The position numbers were made by a program, and so were the translations under genes. A stretch of DNA of 10,314 nt from Opitutaceae bacterium (lineage in GTDB: Bacteria; Verrucomicrobiota; Verrucomicrobiae; Opitutales; Opitutaceae), in assembly GCA_031266495.1 (NCBI GenBank), contig JAISAX010000405.1, forward strand, positions 1 through 10,314. The letters run 5' to 3'. Below are positions 4,105 through 10,314 of this stretch, in pieces; position 1 is the stretch's first letter, and each line of letters opens with the position of its first letter. Under the pieces are notes generated by a model, which saw only the letters and a program-made list of their open reading frames with translations, had not been told where the DNA came from and made no database searches.

Positions 4105-4125
4105 TGTCTAGGCAAGCATCAAAAT

Positions 4126-4335
4126 TTGAGCCTGCCGGGACTCATCACGTTGAGCGGAGACAGCGTGGCGAATGCGAAAGCGGAATTGGGTATGAACCTT
4201 GATGAGGTTACGGGCACGTACACTCTTTCCGTGACCCTGTCAGCCGTGCCCGAGCCAGCCGGGTATGCGACGCTGGCCGGGCTGGTATTGCTGGCGTGGG
4301 TGGCGATGCGCCGCAGCCGCGGCGTGCGCGGCTGA
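4126..4335 (+). pseudogene. Orphan C-terminal part of a PEP-CTERM protein
   Basis: The reading frame gives 69 residues ending with VPEP at 41-44, a hydrophobic segment (about 46-61) and a basic RRSRGVRG tail. These are the three parts of a PEP-CTERM sorting signal, recognised by exosortase at the inner membrane. About 40 residues precede the tail, and there is no signal peptide, which a real PEP-CTERM protein needs. The only starts are a TTG at 4126 and an in-frame ATG at 4192. The frame is open back to the NIF3 stop (4102-4104), with no trace of a normal N-terminus. I read it as the remnant of a gene whose 5' part was lost by deletion or rearrangement. An untested alternative is a very short expressed peptide. 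Confidence 0.6.
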
Positions 4336-4452: not shown

Positions 4453-4600
4453 CACGGGCATCTTGCCCGTGTTCCGGAGAGTGGCACGGGGGCTTCCTTG
4501 CCCGTGAGCGGCGTTGCCCCTCCGCCATACGGCCACACAAACCGGCGACGCTTTACTGTCGATCCGATCCGTCGCAGCGGCAGGAATGCCGCCGCTCCGG
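4453..4600. repeat. Modular hairpin repeat, copy 2, with the second 59-bp exact repeat
   Basis: Hairpin cacgggca/tgcccgtg with loop tct occupies 4453-4471. A second, cacggg/cccgtg, occupies 4485-4506 with a 10-nt loop. The spacer gcgttgcccctccgcc follows, then the block 4542-4600 identical to 42-100. The order of hairpin, spacer and block matches the copy at 1-100, so the duplicated unit is larger than the identical 59 bp and has diverged outside it. A T8 run at 4610-4617 follows and may allow termination of read-through from upstream. Confidence 0.85.
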
Positions 4601-4666: not shown

Positions 4667-5017
4667 ATGCGTGGAAAGTCAGGCAAGGTGAAGACCAGGC
4701 TTTCGCGACTCCACCGGGTCGTGATCTGGCTTGCTGTCGCGCTCGTTCTGTTCCTGCTCGTCGCCGGAGTCCGACCCTCGCTCCACGCCGCCTGCTGCTC
4801 GCAGGACCACGGCAACCCGGTCGCCAGCATCGCGCACCAGTGTGTCATCACCGATTTCAGCCAGGGTCAGGGGATTGTCCTGACCGGCCCGCTTCCCGTT
4901 GCGCCGGACAAAATCCTTGTCGGGGACATCGCCACGATGCCCCGGCCAGTTGTCAGGGAAAAGGACATCCGCCTTTTGCCGCCGCCCTGCGGTCCCCCGG
5001 CGCTCGCGCTGGCGTAA
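4667..5017 (+). CDS. Small single-pass membrane protein with CVITxF motif (DUF2946-like)
   Basis: A 116-residue protein: a basic N-terminus (RLSRLHR), one membrane segment at about 18-36, then an exported tail with H40, C43, C44, H48, H57 and C59 in the segment leading to CVITDFSQG (59-67). It ends RLLPPPCGPPALALA. The Cys/His cluster suggests metal binding, which is inference. Its layout matches the gene ending at 9278 (membrane segment, short His part, CVITIFAHG, then a Pro-rich end), so the two look like divergent paralogues. The DUF2946 link is tentative. In-frame ATGs at 4646 and 4655 are possible starts; 4655 has a weak AGGGA just upstream. Frames extending further upstream would translate the 59-bp repeat and are unlikely. 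It is first in the same-strand metal-type cluster. Confidence 0.68.
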   Translation: MRGKSGKVKTRLSRLHRVVIWLAVALVLFLLVAGVRPSLHAACCSQDHGNPVASIAHQCVITDFSQGQGIVLTGPLPVAPDKILVGDIATMPRPVVREKDIRLLPPPCGPPALALA

Positions 5018-5251: not shown

Positions 5252-5935
5252 ATGCAACTGCTCACCATTTCCCGCCTGAAAAAATCCTTCGTCTCGCCCG
5301 ACGGCGAACGCCGCCTGATCGTCGATGTGCCGGACTTCGCCCTCGCCGCCGGCCGGCAACTCGCCCTGCGCGGCGAAAGCGGCTCCGGCAAGACGACCTT
5401 TCTCCATCTCGTCGCCGGCATCCTCGCCGCCGACGAAGGCGATATCCGCTTCGAAAACGAAAATGTCACCGCCCTGTCCGAATCCGGCCGCGACCGCCTG
5501 CGCGCCTCCTCGTTCGGTTACATTTTCCAGACCTTCAACCTTCTCCAGGGCTACACCTGCCTGGAAAACGTCCTCCTCGGTATGACTTTTTCTCCCGGAC
5601 CAGGCTCCGACCGCGCCCGCGCCACCGCGCTGCTGCGCCGGGTGGGGCTTGGCGAGCGGCTGCACCACCGCCCGCGCCAGCTTTCCACCGGACAACAGCA
5701 ACGCGTCGCCATCGCCCGCGCCCTTGCCAATCGCCCCCGGCTCGTCCTCGCCGACGAACCCACGGGCAACCTCGACCGCGCCAACGCCCGCGAAGCCCTC
5801 GCCCTCATCCGCGAAACCTGTCGCGAAGCCGACGCCGCGCTCCTGCTCGTCAGCCACGACCCCGACGTCCTCTCCGCCTTCGACGAGGAGGACGTCAGCG
5901 ACTTCGCCACCATCAACCAAAGCCTGAAAACCTGA
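5252..5935 (+). CDS. ABC transporter ATP-binding protein, LolD/MacB type
   Basis: A 227-residue nucleotide-binding subunit of normal length for the LolD/FtsE/MacB class. Walker [10 protein letters not shown] is at 41-49, the Q-loop FQTFNLLQ at 92-99, the signature [10 protein letters not shown] at 144-153 (usual form LSGGQQ), Walker B LVLADEP at 164-170, the D-loop GNLD at 172-175 and the H-loop at H202. The FQxFNLL and DEPTGNLD wording is typical of the class paired with FtsX-fold permeases that do not move substrate through a channel. The next gene is exactly such a permease, 97 bases downstream. The ATG at 5252 fits the family N-terminus; the longer frame from 5201 adds a pyrimidine-derived stretch. 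No Shine-Dalgarno sequence is present. In this neighbourhood it probably energises a metal-handling system like ZrgBC. Confidence 0.96.
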
Positions 5936-5952
5936 AAGCCTGAAGGCTTGAA
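5921..5952 (+). repeat. Four-copy octamer repeat across the ATPase stop codon
   Basis: Units are agcctgaa, aacctgaa, agcctgaa and ggcttgaa. The second holds the TGA stop (5933-5935), so the last residues of the ATPase are encoded by the repeat and the rest is untranslated. Loss or gain of a unit would change the C-terminus or the spacing to the permease gene. Confidence 0.7.
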
Positions 5953-6008
5953 ACAATCCGCAAGACCACACCACACCCCACTGCCGACACTTCAAATCTC
6001 ACCCTTTT

Positions 6009-6026
6009 TCAGCCTCAGCCTCAGCC
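6009..6026 (+). promoter_or_regulatory. Hexamer tandem repeat in the permease leader
   Basis: TCAGCC is repeated three times, ending six bases before the permease ATG at 6033 and preceded by a T-run. There is no Shine-Dalgarno sequence. The arrangement parallels the hexamers before rpmB (1708-1743) and before the DUF3299 gene (7904-7927). Confidence 0.65.
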
Positions 6027-6032
6027 ATTCCC

Positions 6033-7235
6033 ATGAAGACCATCCTTTTTCTCGCGCTCCGCAGCCTGCGCCAGCACGCGCTCGCCACCTGGGTCACGAC
6101 GCTCTCCGTCGCCCTCTCCGGCGGCCTGCTCCTGACGGTCTGGATCGTCAAGGAGCAGTCGCAGCTCGCTTTCACCCGCGTGGACACCGGTTTCGATGCC
6201 GTCCTCGGCGCGCGCGGGTCGCCGCTCCAGCTCGTGCTCAACGCCATTTTCCATCTAGAGGCTTCGCCCGGCAACGTCTCGCGCGCCGACTACGAGTTCA
6301 TCAAAAAACATCCGGCCATCAAACGCGCCATCCCCATCGCCGTCGGCGACAACCTCCGCGGCTACCGGATCGTCGGCACCGAACCGGCGTATTTCGAGAC
6401 CGAATACGCCACGGGAAAAACCTTCGCGCTCGCCTCCGGGCGGATATTCGATCCCGGCGCCAAGGAGGCCGTCATCGGCAGCTTTGCCGCCGCGAAACTC
6501 GGCCTCCGCACAGGCGACACGTTTCACCCTTACCACGGACTCGCGTTCGACGAGAACCACCAGCACGCCGAAACCTACACCGTTGCCGGAGTCCTCGCCT
6601 CCTCCGGCACGCCCGCCGACAAAGTCGTCTGGATCCCCCTGCACGGCCTGCAAACCATGTCCGGCCACGCCGCCGCCACCGCCGACCAGGTCAGCGCCGT
6701 GCTCGTGCAACTCCGCTCGCCCGCCGCCGGATTCCAGCTCGACTTGTTATACAACAAGCAAGGCGACCGCCTGACCTTCGCCTACCCGATCGGCGCGATC
6801 ATGGCGGGGTTTTTTCGGAAAATCGGCTGGTTCGACCGCGTGCTTGCGCTCATCGCCTGGCTCGTCGGCCTCGTATCCGCCGCCGGAGTACTGGTGGCGA
6901 TTTACAACTCCATGGCCGCCCGCCGTCGCGACCTCGCCATCCTGCGCGCGCTCGGCGCCCGCCGCCGCACCCTCTTCGGCGCGATCGTGCTCGAAGCCGC
7001 CGCCATCGGCTTCTTCGGCATGATCGCCGCCTTTGCCGTCCTCGCCCTCATCGGCGGCGGCGTCGCCGCCATCATCCGCGCCCAGGCCGGAGTCGTCCTC
7101 GACATCTGGACCTGGACGCCCGTCATGCTCTGGGCGCCGCTCGCCATGATCGCGCTCTGCTCCCTCGGCGGAGTCGTCCCCGCGATCAAGGCCTACCGCA
7201 ACGACGTTGCCACCAACCTCGCCCCCACCTCGTAA
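6033..7235 (+). CDS. ABC transporter permease, FtsX/MacB-fold
   Basis: A 400-residue permease with the four-helix MacB/LolE layout: TM1 at about 17-38, a large periplasmic domain at about 40-265, TM2 at about 269-291, TM3 at about 316-347 and TM4 at about 363-386. After TM2 comes MAARRRDLAILRALGARRRT (294-313), the cytoplasmic coupling segment typical of FtsX-fold permeases that contacts the ATPase. The periplasmic domain has the MacB-like opening and a histidine cluster, HPYHGLAFDENHQH (165-178, with H165, H168, H176 and H178), unusual for lipoprotein or FtsEX systems and suggestive of metal contact. It follows its ATPase by 97 bases and is followed after 66 bases by a His-rich lipoprotein. 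In the Zrg comparison this is the ZrgB/ZrgC-type permease. Lipoprotein release or efflux roles cannot be excluded. Confidence 0.95.
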   Translation: MKTILFLALRSLRQHALATWVTTLSVALSGGLLLTVWIVKEQSQLAFTRVDTGFDAVLGARGSPLQLVLNAIFHLEASPGNVSRADYEFIKKHPAIKRAIPIAVGDNLRGYRIVGTEPAYFETEYATGKTFALASGRIFDPGAKEAVIGSFAAAKLGLRTGDTFHPYHGLAFDENHQHAETYTVAGVLASSGTPADKVVWIPLHGLQTMSGHAAATADQVSAVLVQLRSPAAGFQLDLLYNKQGDRLTFAYPIGAIMAGFFRKIGWFDRVLALIAWLVGLVSAAGVLVAIYNSMAARRRDLAILRALGARRRTLFGAIVLEAAAIGFFGMIAAFAVLALIGGGVAAIIRAQAGVVLDIWTWTPVMLWAPLAMIALCSLGGVVPAIKAYRNDVATNLAPTS

Positions 7236-7249
7236 CCATCTCCCGTCAG

Positions 7250-7301
7250 CCAACCAAACCAACCAGACAACCAACCCGACAGACAGACACACACACAACC
7301 C
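7250..7301 (+). promoter_or_regulatory. A/C-only short-repeat leader of the lipoprotein gene
   Basis: The 52 bases before the ATG are built from CCAA/CCAG-like tetramers, then cagacagac and an ACACACAC tract, and end in aaccc. T is absent and G is very rare; no Shine-Dalgarno sequence is visible. It is the same type of unstructured leader as the hexamer leaders elsewhere, though the repeat unit is different. Confidence 0.55.
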
Positions 7302-7859
7302 ATGCAAACAACCATCCGCATCTCCATCAACGCGCTCGCGGTCGCCGCCGCGCTTGCCCTCGCCACCGCCGGCTGCCACCGGCACGACGACGCCCACGCC
7401 GCCGCCGGAACCACCACCACCGCCGCCGGCCACCACCACGAACACACGCCCCCGCACGGCGGCACGCCCGTCGTCCTCGGCGACGAGGCGTTTCACCTCG
7501 AACTGGTCCGCGACGCCGGGGCCGGCAAGCTCCAGATCTACGTCATGGACGGAGAACTGGAAAACTTCATCCGCATCCCCGCCGCCTCGATCAGCATTAC
7601 GGCAACGGTCAACGGCCAGCCGCAGGCGCTTGTCTTCCGGCCCGTGGCGAGCGAGGCCACCGGCGAGACGGCCGGCGACACCTCTCTCTTCGAAGCGGAG
7701 GCCGGCTGGATCGGCACCAAAGCCGCCGACGACTTCGACGCCACCCTGGAAACCATCACCATCAAAGGCACCGCCTTCAACAACGTGAAGTTCAACTACC
7801 CCAAAGGCAACGAGGACGACGACGACGACGATCACGGCGAACACGAACACAAACACTAA
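7302..7859 (+). CDS. His/Asp-rich periplasmic lipoprotein, predicted metal binder (ZrgA-like role)
   Basis: A 185-residue exported protein. Residues 1-24 are a signal peptide with a lipobox-like end (ATAGC) and C25 as the likely lipidated residue. The mature N-terminus is rich in histidine: HRHDDAH (26-32) and HHHEHTPPH (44-52). A conserved-looking core starts at HGGTPVVLGDEAFHLELV and KLQIYVMDGELENFI. The C-terminus is an Asp run followed by HGEHEHKH (171-185). Such clusters bind Zn, Ni or Co in many metal chaperones, so binding is a strong inference but the metal is unproved. Vibrio ZrgA is also a His-rich periplasmic protein encoded with an ABC transporter and a DUF3299 protein; I cannot confirm sequence homology (DUF2796). 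It lies 66 bases after the permease and 70 before the DUF3299 gene. Confidence 0.87.
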   Translation: MQTTIRISINALAVAAALALATAGCHRHDDAHAAAGTTTTAAGHHHEHTPPHGGTPVVLGDEAFHLELVRDAGAGKLQIYVMDGELENFIRIPAASISITATVNGQPQALVFRPVASEATGETAGDTSLFEAEAGWIGTKAADDFDATLETITIKGTAFNNVKFNYPKGNEDDDDDDHGEHEHKH

Positions 7860-7903
7860 AGAAACGCCTTCGTCTTTACCTTCGTTGCCTTTGTTTCCTT
7901 CTG

Positions 7904-7927
7904 TTCAAATTCAGATTCAAATTCAAA
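7904..7927 (+). promoter_or_regulatory. Hexamer tandem repeat before the DUF3299 gene
   Basis: TTCAAA, TTCAGA, TTCAAA, TTCAAA in a row, followed by CC and the ATG at 7930. It is the clearest case of the leader type seen at 1708-1743 and 6009-6026: a hexamer array, G-poor, ending within a few bases of the start codon, with no Shine-Dalgarno sequence. Confidence 0.7.
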
Positions 7928-7929
7928 CC

Positions 7930-8571
7930 ATGAAAGCCGCCGACCAGAGAATCGCCCGCCAGACCGCCCGCCGCCACAAACTGATCAAACGCCTGCTGGT
8001 CTGGACAGCGGTGGCCATCCCCTTCATAGCGCTCGCCGCCCTGCTCGACCCGCAGCGCGAAGACCGCGCCGCGCGCGACGCCGCCGCGCAGCAGGAACTC
8101 GCCGCCCGCCAGGCCGTCCTCGAACAGGTGCCCGAATCGAAGCGCGGCCTCCGGAGCGGCCCCGGCTCCGGCAACGACATCCTCGACCTGAGTTTTTCGA
8201 AACTCGAATTCGAGGTCCCGCCCGAAGCCGCCCGGCCAAAAGACGGCCAGCCACGCCACGACAACTACGCGCCCGACCGCATCCGCGCGTACAACGGACG
8301 CACTGTACGCCTGCGCGGATACATGCTCCCCGTGCGCATGGAAGAAGGCAAAGTACGCGAATGCCTGCTCATGGCCGGCCAGATGACCTGCTGCTACGGA
8401 GCCACGCCCAACTTCTGGGAATTTGTTTCTGTCAAACTGGCCGGGCCGCCCGTGCCGGGTCTGATGGACGTGCCCCTTGTATTCGAAGGCACCCTCACCA
8501 CAGGCGACGTTTACGACAACGGTTACTGGACCCAGTATTACACCATGGAAGCCACCTCCGTCAGCCGATGA
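7930..8571 (+). CDS. DUF3299-type membrane-anchored protein (ZrgD-like)
   Basis: A 213-residue protein. A basic N-terminus (HKLIKR) and one membrane segment (about 22-39) anchor it with the rest exported. The segment 42-66 is Ala/Arg/Gln-rich and probably helical. The DUF3299 core runs from about 118 to 210: NGRTVRLRGYMLPVR (122-136), the paired cysteines TCCYGATPNFWEFVSVK (153-169), then VPLVFEGTLTTG and YTMEATSV. The CC-x-G-x-x-P motif is the hallmark of this family. Its function is unknown, but in Vibrio a DUF3299 protein is part of the Zur-controlled ZrgABCDE zinc locus. The ATG at 7930 follows a hexamer leader; the longer frame would translate that repeat. The stop overlaps the next start (ATGA at 8568-8571), which suggests translational coupling. 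Confidence 0.9.
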   Translation: MKAADQRIARQTARRHKLIKRLLVWTAVAIPFIALAALLDPQREDRAARDAAAQQELAARQAVLEQVPESKRGLRSGPGSGNDILDLSFSKLEFEVPPEAARPKDGQPRHDNYAPDRIRAYNGRTVRLRGYMLPVRMEEGKVRECLLMAGQMTCCYGATPNFWEFVSVKLAGPPVPGLMDVPLVFEGTLTTGDVYDNGYWTQYYTMEATSVSR

Positions 8572-9278
8572 GCAGGATTTTCGATTTTCGATTCTCGATT
8601 CTCGATTTGAAGGAGCCGTTGGTATCCAACCGGGGAGCACCGCGGAAAGAGGACCGGATCGGGAGTGGCGGGAGTGGCGGGAGTGGCGCGGGCGTCCCGC
8701 CCGCAAGCGTTGCCTCACCGCTCCGGCGTGGCACGGGCTTCCAGCCCGTGAGCGTTGCCTCTCCGATCCGGCGGCGCTTTGCGCCGTCCCACGGGCGATT
8801 GACGGAAAATGCCCGCGCCACTCCGCGCCTGCTGCGCGTGACCGCATGGACGGGTGTCATCTTGATGGTGGTGCTGGCATTCGGCGCGGCGAGTCCGCAA
8901 TTCCACGCCTGGTTCCATGCGGAGGCCCATGCCGCCGCCGCCGCCGCGTATCACGAACACGAACACAGTTCCCCGGAGGCCACCTCCTCCCCTCCCGCCA
9001 ACCCCGCCAACCCAGCCAACCCCGCCCGCTCCCCTGCCCTGCCCGCCCCTCCCGCCCCTCCCGCCGACTCCGGCAGCGCGTCGTCCGTGCCCGAGGATGA
9101 CGACGGCTGTGTCATCACGATATTCGCGCACGGTGTTGTGAGCCTGAGCGCGGCCCTTGTCCTGCTCGCCGGGATCGCCGTCCTCAAACCCGCGCACCGG
9201 GTCGCCTGCGACCGGATTGCCCCTGCCGCGCCGCGTTACACCTGGTTGCGAACCCACGCGCCCCCTCCGGCGGCCTGA
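8568..9278 (+). CDS. His-rich membrane protein with CVITxF motif (DUF2946-like), repeat-derived N-terminus
   Basis: The full frame codes 236 residues. Residues 3-80 are translated from repeats: the heptamer tract 8576-8608, the nonamer tract 8661-8687 and the hairpins at 8688-8786. The likely ancestral protein begins near RLLRVTAW (residues 87-94): one membrane segment (about 93-107), then FHAWFHAEAH and YHEHEH, a Pro/Ala/Asn linker with NPANPANPA, then CVITIFAHG starting near residue 181, a second membrane segment (about 190-207) and a THAPPPAA end. It resembles the 4667-5017 product. The ATG at 8568 overlaps the DUF3299 stop. Alternative starts are TTG 8799, which keeps the basic residues before the membrane segment, and GTG 8838. 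I keep 8568 as the outer limit and doubt that the first 80 residues matter. A metal-related role is inferred from the histidines and context. Confidence 0.68.
   Translation: MSRIFDFRFSILDLKEPLVSNRGAPRKEDRIGSGGSGGSGAGVPPASVASPLRRGTGFQPVSVASPIRRRFAPSHGRLTENARATPRLLRVTAWTGVILMVVLAFGAASPQFHAWFHAEAHAAAAAAYHEHEHSSPEATSSPPANPANPANPARSPALPAPPAPPADSGSASSVPEDDDGCVITIFAHGVVSLSAALVLLAGIAVLKPAHRVACDRIAPAAPRYTWLRTHAPPPAA
8576..8608 (+). repeat. Heptamer tandem repeat at the start of the last operon gene
   Basis: Units are GATTTTC twice, GATTCTC twice, then a partial GATTT. The tract begins six bases after the ATG/TGA overlap at 8568-8571. The unit length of 7 is not a multiple of three, so a change in copy number would shift the frame of any protein started at 8568. 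Its translation, FDFRFSILDL, is low-complexity and unlike the rest of the protein. Confidence 0.75.
8661..8786. repeat. Modular hairpin repeat, copy inside the last operon reading frame
   Basis: Three perfect GGGAGTGGC nonamers (8661-8687) are followed by hairpins gcgggcg/cgcccgc with loop tcc (8688-8704), cacgggct/agcccgtg with loop tcc (8732-8750) and cggcgc/gcgccg with loop ttt (8772-8786). Near-identical spacers, agcgttgcctcaccgctccgg-type, occur at 8706-8726 and 8751-8771, showing two tandem hairpin-plus-spacer units. Stems and spacers match those at 4453-4523 and 5043-5059. Confidence 0.85.
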
Positions 9279-9496: not shown

Positions 9497-10314
9497 ATGA
9501 AAAACAACATTCTTGCAAAAACGTTCCCGACGGCTCTTGCCGCGGGACTCTTCATCATGATCGCTCCGCAATCCGGAGCGCAAGCAACCCCCGGCATCTA
9601 TACGGCCGGTCACGGCGACATTGGCGTGGCGTTCGAGGACGGTGAACTCGAACCCCACTGGCATCTCGGCTCCGCGGCCGTCGTCAATGGCCAGGAACTC
9701 GGCGGGGATGGCGGTGAATTTGCTCCGGACGAAATCATCGCCTCCGGCTCCGGCACGCTGGTCGTCAGCGGCGCCAATGCCTCGAAACTGAACAGCCTGC
9801 TGGGAGTGTCCCTCAATGACACGATCTACATCTTCGGTTCCGATTTTGAGCTGCCCAACCTGGGCTGGGCTTCGGAAGAACTGGACAAACCGGAGTGGAG
9901 CGGCGGCGTCATCAACGTGACGCTGTCCAGCGTCAGCGGTCCCGGATATTTCGCGCTCTTCCAGATAGACGAGGCCGACAGCACGATTAACACCGCCCGC
10001 TTCTCCAGTTACGATGCCGGCGCCACTGGCGCCAACAACGTGCTGGCAGTTCCGGCCGGAGGTCATGTTCACTACCTGTTCGGCTTCAGCGAAGCCGGTT
10101 CGTATGAACTGAGCCTTACCTTCAGCGGCACCCACACGACTGCGGGGTTCGTTGAATCAACGGCCACCTTTGGCATGGTGGTGGGAGAAAGTGCAAACGG
10201 AGCGACGCCGGTCCCGGAGCCAGCCACCTGCGTGCTTCTCGCCGGCGCAACGGGACTGCTCTTCGCGCTGAACCAAAGGATGCGCCTCCACCTCCGCCTC
10301 CGCCGTAAAACCGG
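9497..10314 (+). CDS. Secreted PEP-CTERM protein with choice-of-anchor M-like domain (runs off window end)
   Basis: The frame is open from the ATG at 9497 to the window edge (272 codons), so the stop lies outside but must be near. Residues 1-30 are a signal peptide ending GAQA. The body (about 33-215) matches my memory of the choice-of-anchor M (TIGR03769) pattern: TAGHGDIGVAFEDG (36-49), HWHLG (54-58), APDEI, GWASEE, VNVTL-like INVTLSSVSGPGYFALFQID (139-158), GGHVHYLFGFSEAGSYELSL (188-207). H39, H54, H56, H190 and H192 are candidate metal ligands. The end has VPEP at 239-242, a hydrophobic segment to about 258 and an Arg-rich tail, a complete PEP-CTERM signal for exosortase sorting to the outer surface. 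It lies 218 bases after the ABC operon. There is no Shine-Dalgarno sequence. It probably sits on the cell surface and captures a metal or metal complex; that role is inferred. Confidence 0.87.
   Translation, partial: MKNNILAKTFPTALAAGLFIMIAPQSGAQATPGIYTAGHGDIGVAFEDGELEPHWHLGSAAVVNGQELGGDGGEFAPDEIIASGSGTLVVSGANASKLNSLLGVSLNDTIYIFGSDFELPNLGWASEELDKPEWSGGVINVTLSSVSGPGYFALFQIDEADSTINTARFSSYDAGATGANNVLAVPAGGHVHYLFGFSEAGSYELSLTFSGTHTTAGFVESTATFGMVVGESANGATPVPEPATCVLLAGATGLLFALNQRMRLHLRLRRKT

Follow-up and report, generated by a model that had tools for sequence, protein, structure and literature searches.

Zinc collection outside Gram-negative cells is poorly known, the exoprotein ZepA (All3515) of Anabaena being one recent case (PMC10957091), and zinc proteins related to the one considered here have been described in Corynebacterium diphtheriae as ZnuE, ZnuF and ZnuG (PMC12445094). 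In this report, we examine a gene that opens at position 9497 of contig JAISAX010000405.1 from an Opitutaceae bacterium; the whole contig of 10314 bases was analysed and is called the window below. The product of this gene carries a choice-of-anchor M domain, and the window protein is probably a zinc-scavenging, PEP-CTERM-tailed member of this already known domain family. In Verrucomicrobiota, Planctomycetota and neighbouring groups, its relatives are frequently found within zinc-starvation gene sets. Outside the window's own lineage, one operator-like palindrome is common to these relatives and to znuA, cobW/zigA and pseudopilin genes.

In C. diphtheriae, the genes of the relatives are zinc- and Zur-regulated (PMC6711530). 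ZnuE, ZnuF and ZnuG carry HxD and HxH motifs about 150 residues apart and give thermal shifts consistent with zinc binding, and the motif histidines of ZnuE and ZnuG are required for the growth effects of these two proteins (PMC12445094). The window protein resembles ZnuE/F/G and CmrA/CmrA2 in this spacing, with 148 residues between D41 and H190, as well as in its zinc setting and expected surface location. It differs in its PEP-CTERM tail, where the C. diphtheriae proteins have a sortase signal (ZnuG, CmrA, CmrA2) or another attachment, and in an added H54xH56 pair and E74, found in its near relatives. Furthermore, ZnuE/F/G are encoded at the locus of an anchored-repeat ATP-binding cassette (ABC) transporter of the ZnuABC type, whereas an FtsX-type transporter lies beside the window gene. 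ZepA, too, is an exoprotein that carries a PEP-CTERM signal and is built as an immunoglobulin-like beta sandwich. It shares with the relatives described below a gene context of COG0523, TonB receptors and FUR, a link to zinc uptake and, presumably, control by Zur, of which it is a target; homologues are reported in the PVC (Planctomycetes-Verrucomicrobia-Chlamydiae) group (PMC10957091). However, ZepA, compared here by description only, is typified by the motif H-X2-9-H-F/Y-H, and the window protein reads H39-X14-H54-W-H56 instead (PMC10957091). The ZrgABCDE system of Vibrio, whose zrgE encodes a DUF3299 protein, responds to a lack of zinc: in Vibrio parahaemolyticus, the increase is 76- to 206-fold (PMC9817125).

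The gene and the parts of its product are as follows.

9497..10314 (frame 9497-10312), forward strand: choice-of-anchor M gene, open for 272 codons and cut by the contig end
Window protein, N- to C-terminal: signal peptide-like N terminus; H39 and D41 (HxD); H54xH56; E74; H190 and H192 (HxH); P240-E241-P242 tail

A stop codon is missing because the frame stays open to the contig end, and the product is listed as P0001 with 273 amino acids. The first-pass annotation, made from the letters alone, had read a PEP-CTERM-anchored choice-of-anchor M protein at this place, and this reading holds: the protein exceeds the cut-off of the choice-of-anchor M model NF038134 (57.9 bits against 55, E 1.4e-15), and its tail follows the PEP-CTERM pattern of PEP, a hydrophobic stretch and basic residues, plainly readable although the scores stay under the cut-offs of TIGR02595 (12.3 against 16) and PF07589 (16.9 against 20.7). 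The narrower assignment to TIGR03769, for which a model search had been suggested, did not stand, with 19.7 bits (E 9e-4, residues 189-222) against a cut-off of 30.9, so that only the wider NF038134 model is reached; TIGR03773 is also missed, its match to residues 117-239 scoring 46.2 bits against a cut-off of 190.3. An exosortase (PF09721) is encoded in 30 of the 31 searched genomes that carry the domain. In an AlphaFold2 model, the window protein is predicted to consist of strands and a C-terminal helix (242-272), with a mean predicted local distance difference test (pLDDT) score of 87.6; the ten-residue blocks between 31 and 230 score 93-98, apart from one at 82.

A first search for relatives gave 29 proteins including the window's own, of which 28 were aligned after exclusion of the short fragment P0024. 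H39, D41, H54, H56, E74, H190 and P240-E241-P242 are invariant in all 28 rows. Thus, of the five histidines that the annotation had placed in conserved parts (H39, H54, H56, H190, H192), four are kept throughout, and H192 is absent from P0027, P0028 and P0029. A wider set of 72 rows combined the window protein, 67 proteins of 200-330 residues and at least 100 bits from the 71 loci introduced below, and four from the genome G054; here, H39, D41, H190 and H192 are kept in at least 90% of rows, and H54, H56 and E74 fall below that level. The profile built from these rows found at least 68 proteins, from 7999 candidates scored, including the Rothia TIGR03773 proteins P0049 (E 4.6e-33) and P0079 (E 6.5e-32); in these two, HxD and HxH are present, and of the H54xH56 pair the first histidine is missing. 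This supports the view, already voiced in the annotation, that the actinobacterial TIGR03769/TIGR03773 proteins have in the window protein a Gram-negative relative with a PEP-CTERM tail; that the domain occurs with different anchors is implied by the curators' family name. The same profile matched P0080 (521 amino acids), which joins parts of the choice-of-anchor M domain to PF01297, the ZnuA family; in P0080, HxH precedes an HxD-like motif. As a separate observation, one contig of the genome G006 (C179, locus L006) holds seven choice-of-anchor M matches, three of them within one open frame of 1966 residues.

The gene neighbourhoods of the relatives point to zinc. When the first alignment was run once against species genomes, 506 stretches matched, 72 of them encoding a relative, which yielded 71 loci; their flanks reach at most 10 kilobases (kb), many being shortened by contig ends, and a few loci come from one genome. 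The controls, not matched one-to-one, were 40 regions, each 18-20 kb long and drawn from 14 of these genomes, so that 1030 kb of loci were compared with 798 kb of controls. With thresholds for neighbouring genes chosen after score gaps were seen, at least one of cobW (CobW/ZigA), fur, a ZnuD-like TonB receptor gene or znuA was present in 35 of 71 loci and in none of the controls, bearing out the association with metal genes that had been anticipated. Singly, cobW was found in 20 loci (Fisher p 5e-5), fur in 11 (p 0.007), znuA in nine (p 0.025) and ZnuD-like receptors in eight (p 0.049), each against 0/40 controls, the last two being weak as single tests; a MerC-like gene occurred in 16/71 loci and 0/40 controls. 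In L005, the CobW protein reaches 648 bits with the ZigA model, above its cut-off of 600, and a receptor in L012 scores 265 bits against ZnuD, under the cut-off of 950. None of the Fur-type and ZnuA-type proteins tested passed a single equivalog cut-off, and Zur is therefore named from context. From the zinc-gene neighbourhoods, zinc is the most likely metal. Two further kinds of neighbour were recorded: a family of about 190 residues in 11/71 loci (L018:1471-2043 and ten others) and 0/40 controls, whose member in L018 matches nothing in NCBIfam at E<=1e-4, and a large fused MFS (major facilitator superfamily)/spermidine-synthase-type protein near the domain gene in five loci (L011, L015, L016, L023, L028).

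A palindrome, TGCAAA-N3-TTTGCA, was first picked out by counting inverted repeats over 180 upstream stretches. The 71 loci contain 21 exact, 29 one-mismatch and 71 two-mismatch copies, compared with 0, 2 and 14 in one mononucleotide shuffle, and copies with at most one mismatch occur in 33 of 71 loci and one of 40 controls. Of the 50 such copies, 40 are close to where a labelled gene starts, and of the 21 exact ones, 20 are. Across 15 genomes, selected for having sites or near-sites in their loci, the exact palindrome occurs 22 times and a reversed-pattern control not once; 19 of the 22 sit in the 71 loci and are therefore expected by construction, leaving the other three as the informative ones. 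An exact site in G006 starts 10 bases ahead of the longest znuA frame and overlaps its first possible start; after this frame come others of the znuC, znuB (identified by reading alone) and fur types. Additionally, an exact copy lies 225 bases upstream of a cobW frame in G034, and another precedes the fur gene of G013, with pseudopilin and domain genes about 2 kb further on. We read the palindrome, by its sequence and placement, as a candidate Zur-type operator. For Luteolibacter, zepA has already been reported to have a perfect palindrome upstream (PMC10957091).

Among the neighbours counted, a DUF1559-type pseudopilin gene is the most frequent, being present in 38 of 71 loci and 0/40 controls; in 37 of the 38 cases it lies within 1 kb of a domain gene on the same strand. 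In the genome of Geminisphaera colitermitum TAV2 (G001; locus L001), it begins 11 bases downstream of the domain gene, and its product has a prepilin signal at the N terminus (TIGR02532, 24.2 bits, cut-off 16.3) and scores under the cut-off for GspG (39.9 against 88.85). The wider pseudopilin family is very large, with 7998 of 7999 scored candidates matching; most of the 120 matches listed carry PF07596 (DUF1559), many of them also PF07963. Both the pseudopilin N terminus and the PF07596 typing are shared with the DUF1559 / H-X9-DG prepilin-type proteins of Planctomycetota and Verrucomicrobiota. Unlike that family at large, the subfamily found here is tied to the choice-of-anchor M domain and the palindrome, and its residues invariant in 37 rows include D195, H196 and H198. 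Matches to it at E<=1e-35 were found in 30 of 31 genomes, at 1-3 copies each; these genomes were picked mostly for having domain and pseudopilin, and only 85 of the first-look candidates were scored in the larger ones. The scores fall into 35 genes of at least 177 bits and five of 132-145 bits. Among seven further pseudopilin places (L176-L182), a domain gene adjoins at L177, with a one-mismatch palindrome, and at L180, without one. The L176 and L178 pseudopilins have no domain gene nearby and a one-mismatch palindrome at the gene start, that of L182 has no domain gene nearby and such a palindrome about 430 bases upstream, and the lower-scoring ones of L179 and L181 have neither. Since the window's contig ends at 10314, any pseudopilin 3' of its domain gene lies beyond view. 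The pseudopilin and the palindrome are the new parts of this analysis, and both come from the relatives, not from the window; no report linking the choice-of-anchor M domain to a pseudopilin was found in the literature searched, which excluded most subscription papers and all preprints. Likewise, papers naming Zur, zinc and pseudopilin together do not, by their titles and abstract openings, describe a zinc-linked pseudopilin.

Upstream of the domain gene, the window encodes a transporter operon and small membrane proteins.

4667..5017 (start may be 4646), forward strand: small Cys/His membrane protein (small1), operon head
5252..5935, forward strand: LolD/MacB-type ATPase, ZrgC-like (PF00005, 109.4 bits)
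6033..7235, forward strand: FtsX/MacB-type permease, ZrgB-like (PF02687, 52.4 bits; PF12704, 51.4 bits)
7302..7859, forward strand: His-rich putative lipoprotein with 13 histidines (no Pfam family at E<=1)
7930..8571, forward strand: DUF3299 protein, ZrgE-like (PF11736, 24.0 bits, just over the cut-off of 22)
8808..9278, forward strand: small His-rich membrane protein (small2), start codon uncertain (no Pfam or NCBIfam family above cut-off)

The metal-type ABC operon that the annotation had described next door is thus present, with ATPase, permease, His-rich lipoprotein and DUF3299 protein at 5252-8571; against TIGR02211, the ATPase scores 180.4 bits, under the cut-off of 307.75. As in ZrgABCDE, an ATPase, a permease and a DUF3299 protein share one operon with an exported protein, predicted to bind metal there and His-rich here. 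Unlike ZrgABCDE, the window offers no Pfam match to DUF2796 (ZrgA) or DUF2607 (ZrgD) in the His-rich lipoprotein, small1 or small2, and the available text on the Vibrio system mentions no choice-of-anchor M gene (PMC9817125).

Whether operon and domain belong together is where the evidence divides. The whole island recurs in G054, in the order small1, ATPase (91% identical), permease (94%), His-rich lipoprotein, DUF3299 protein (83%), small2, pseudopilin, two domain genes, small2, two domain genes and pseudopilin. Small1 is 87% identical there and 47% in TAV2, at the same position, and has no Pfam or NCBIfam family above cut-off; the DUF3299 protein is 72% identical in TAV2. Relatives of small2 occur twice in the G054 island (58-59%) and once just upstream of the TAV2 domain gene (L001:9392-9769, 41%). 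Moreover, in two other Verrucomicrobiota loci the domain gene has a relative of the His-rich lipoprotein close by, adjacent to it in L006 (38%) and in its vicinity in L029 (37%). Set against this conservation is a quite plausible alternative, in which the protein scavenges zinc but is no partner of the MacB-type operon, the two being separate zinc-related or merely adjacent units. In a sample of 150 genomes from the family of G001, with permeases counted at E<=1e-20, the permease is present in 96 and the domain in seven (five over cut-off), and both meet only in G001 and G054 (Fisher p 0.10, trend negative); even in TAV2, the operon lies on contig C186 and the domain gene on C50. Only L010 of the 71 loci has a related permease in its covered flank (26% identity, E 9e-37). 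Furthermore, the domain protein is nearer to TAV2 (64% identity, against 32-36% to the G054 relatives), yet the permease is nearer to G054 than to TAV2 (85%). For the 20 highest-scoring permease loci, the surrounding 1.5 kb or so was searched by tblastn, which found the ATPase in 20, the His-rich lipoprotein in 12 and DUF3299 in seven, and Pfam places DUF3299 in 24 of 49 genomes having the domain. A general link between the domain and MacB-type/DUF3299 operons, for which the annotation had suggested a co-occurrence test, is thus not supported: the adjacency is local, being conserved in the window and one near relative and not across the family. Of the two conditions that the annotation had named for its own refutation, a TIGR03769 score below cut-off did come about, but the wider family model is passed and the gene neighbourhood reappears in one relative.

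Taking these lines together, we consider it fairly likely that the window protein is an exported, PEP-CTERM-sorted zinc-binding scavenger. A Sec signal and exosortase sorting would carry it as far as the outer surface or matrix; there, H39, D41, H190 and H192, aided by H54, H56 and E74, may bind zinc when it is scarce. In the window's lineage, outer-membrane and periplasmic carriers would then take over the metal, with the His-rich lipoprotein and the small His-rich membrane proteins as candidates. The ZrgBC-like ATPase/permease might power this handover, the weakest link of the explanation.

Several observations, beside the rarity of permease and domain in one genome, weigh against this scavenger. 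MacB/FtsX-type pumps are not known to act as importers. Foldseek with the window protein gave no match reaching E 0.001 and no confident solved structure. The window itself has no palindrome above chance (three matches at three mismatches, 2.58 expected), and a looser form of the palindrome is at background in G001 (62 sites, 70 for the reversed control) and G054 (70 and 72), so zinc control in the window's lineage is put forward as a proposal only. A Fur-family gene at G054:C1:6079489-6079767, about 20 kb from the G054 island, may be the zinc regulator of that lineage. Within the covered flanks, 36 of 71 loci have no cobW, fur, ZnuD-like or znuA gene, and seven (L019, L023, L052, L054, L058, L063, L067) have no cobW, fur, TonB, znuA, pseudopilin or palindrome with at most one mismatch. 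That the protein binds another metal (copper, manganese or nickel) or none, as a matrix protein, is an improbable reading. In C. diphtheriae, a His-to-Ala mutant of ZnuE still shifts with zinc, and single deletion of znuF or znuG does not impair growth (PMC12445094). Plasmid-borne ZnuF or ZnuG even cut low-zinc growth in a transporter-less strain, where sequestration or storage is discussed (PMC12445094), and the window protein could accordingly be imagined as a surface zinc store or sink that buffers excess or starves competitors. We regard this as rather unlikely: the relatives keep company with uptake genes (ZnuA, ZnuD-like, ZigA, Fur) and have the same palindrome as a znuA, which fits starvation and not excess.

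For the scavenger, a broader and more doubtful extension can be sketched. In Planctomycetota and Verrucomicrobiota, zinc starvation might induce a two-part collector, a PEP-CTERM HxD/HxH protein and a DUF1559-type D-H-x-H pseudopilin that presents, extrudes or retracts it; in the window's lineage, this collector might be joined to a ZrgBC-like FtsX machine driving zinc transfer via the His-rich lipoprotein. If true, this would assign a plausible role to a single subfamily within the very large group of DUF1559 prepilin-type proteins. More generally, the analysis suggests that exosortase-sorted zinc proteins include a further widespread family, which has relatives in the sortase-anchored ones of Actinobacteria and is accompanied by a candidate Zur operator and by a pseudopilin as partner, all testable in cultured Verrucomicrobiota.

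Elsewhere in the window, positions 4114-4335 (forward strand), right after a Nif3-like gene, encode the C-terminal fragment of a PEP-CTERM protein, with 35.1 bits to NF038126 against a cut-off of 50; it looks like the remnant of another surface protein gene. Additionally, an intergenic stretch of about 59 bases is present twice by eye, at 42-100 and 4542-4600, and looks like a repetitive intergenic element.
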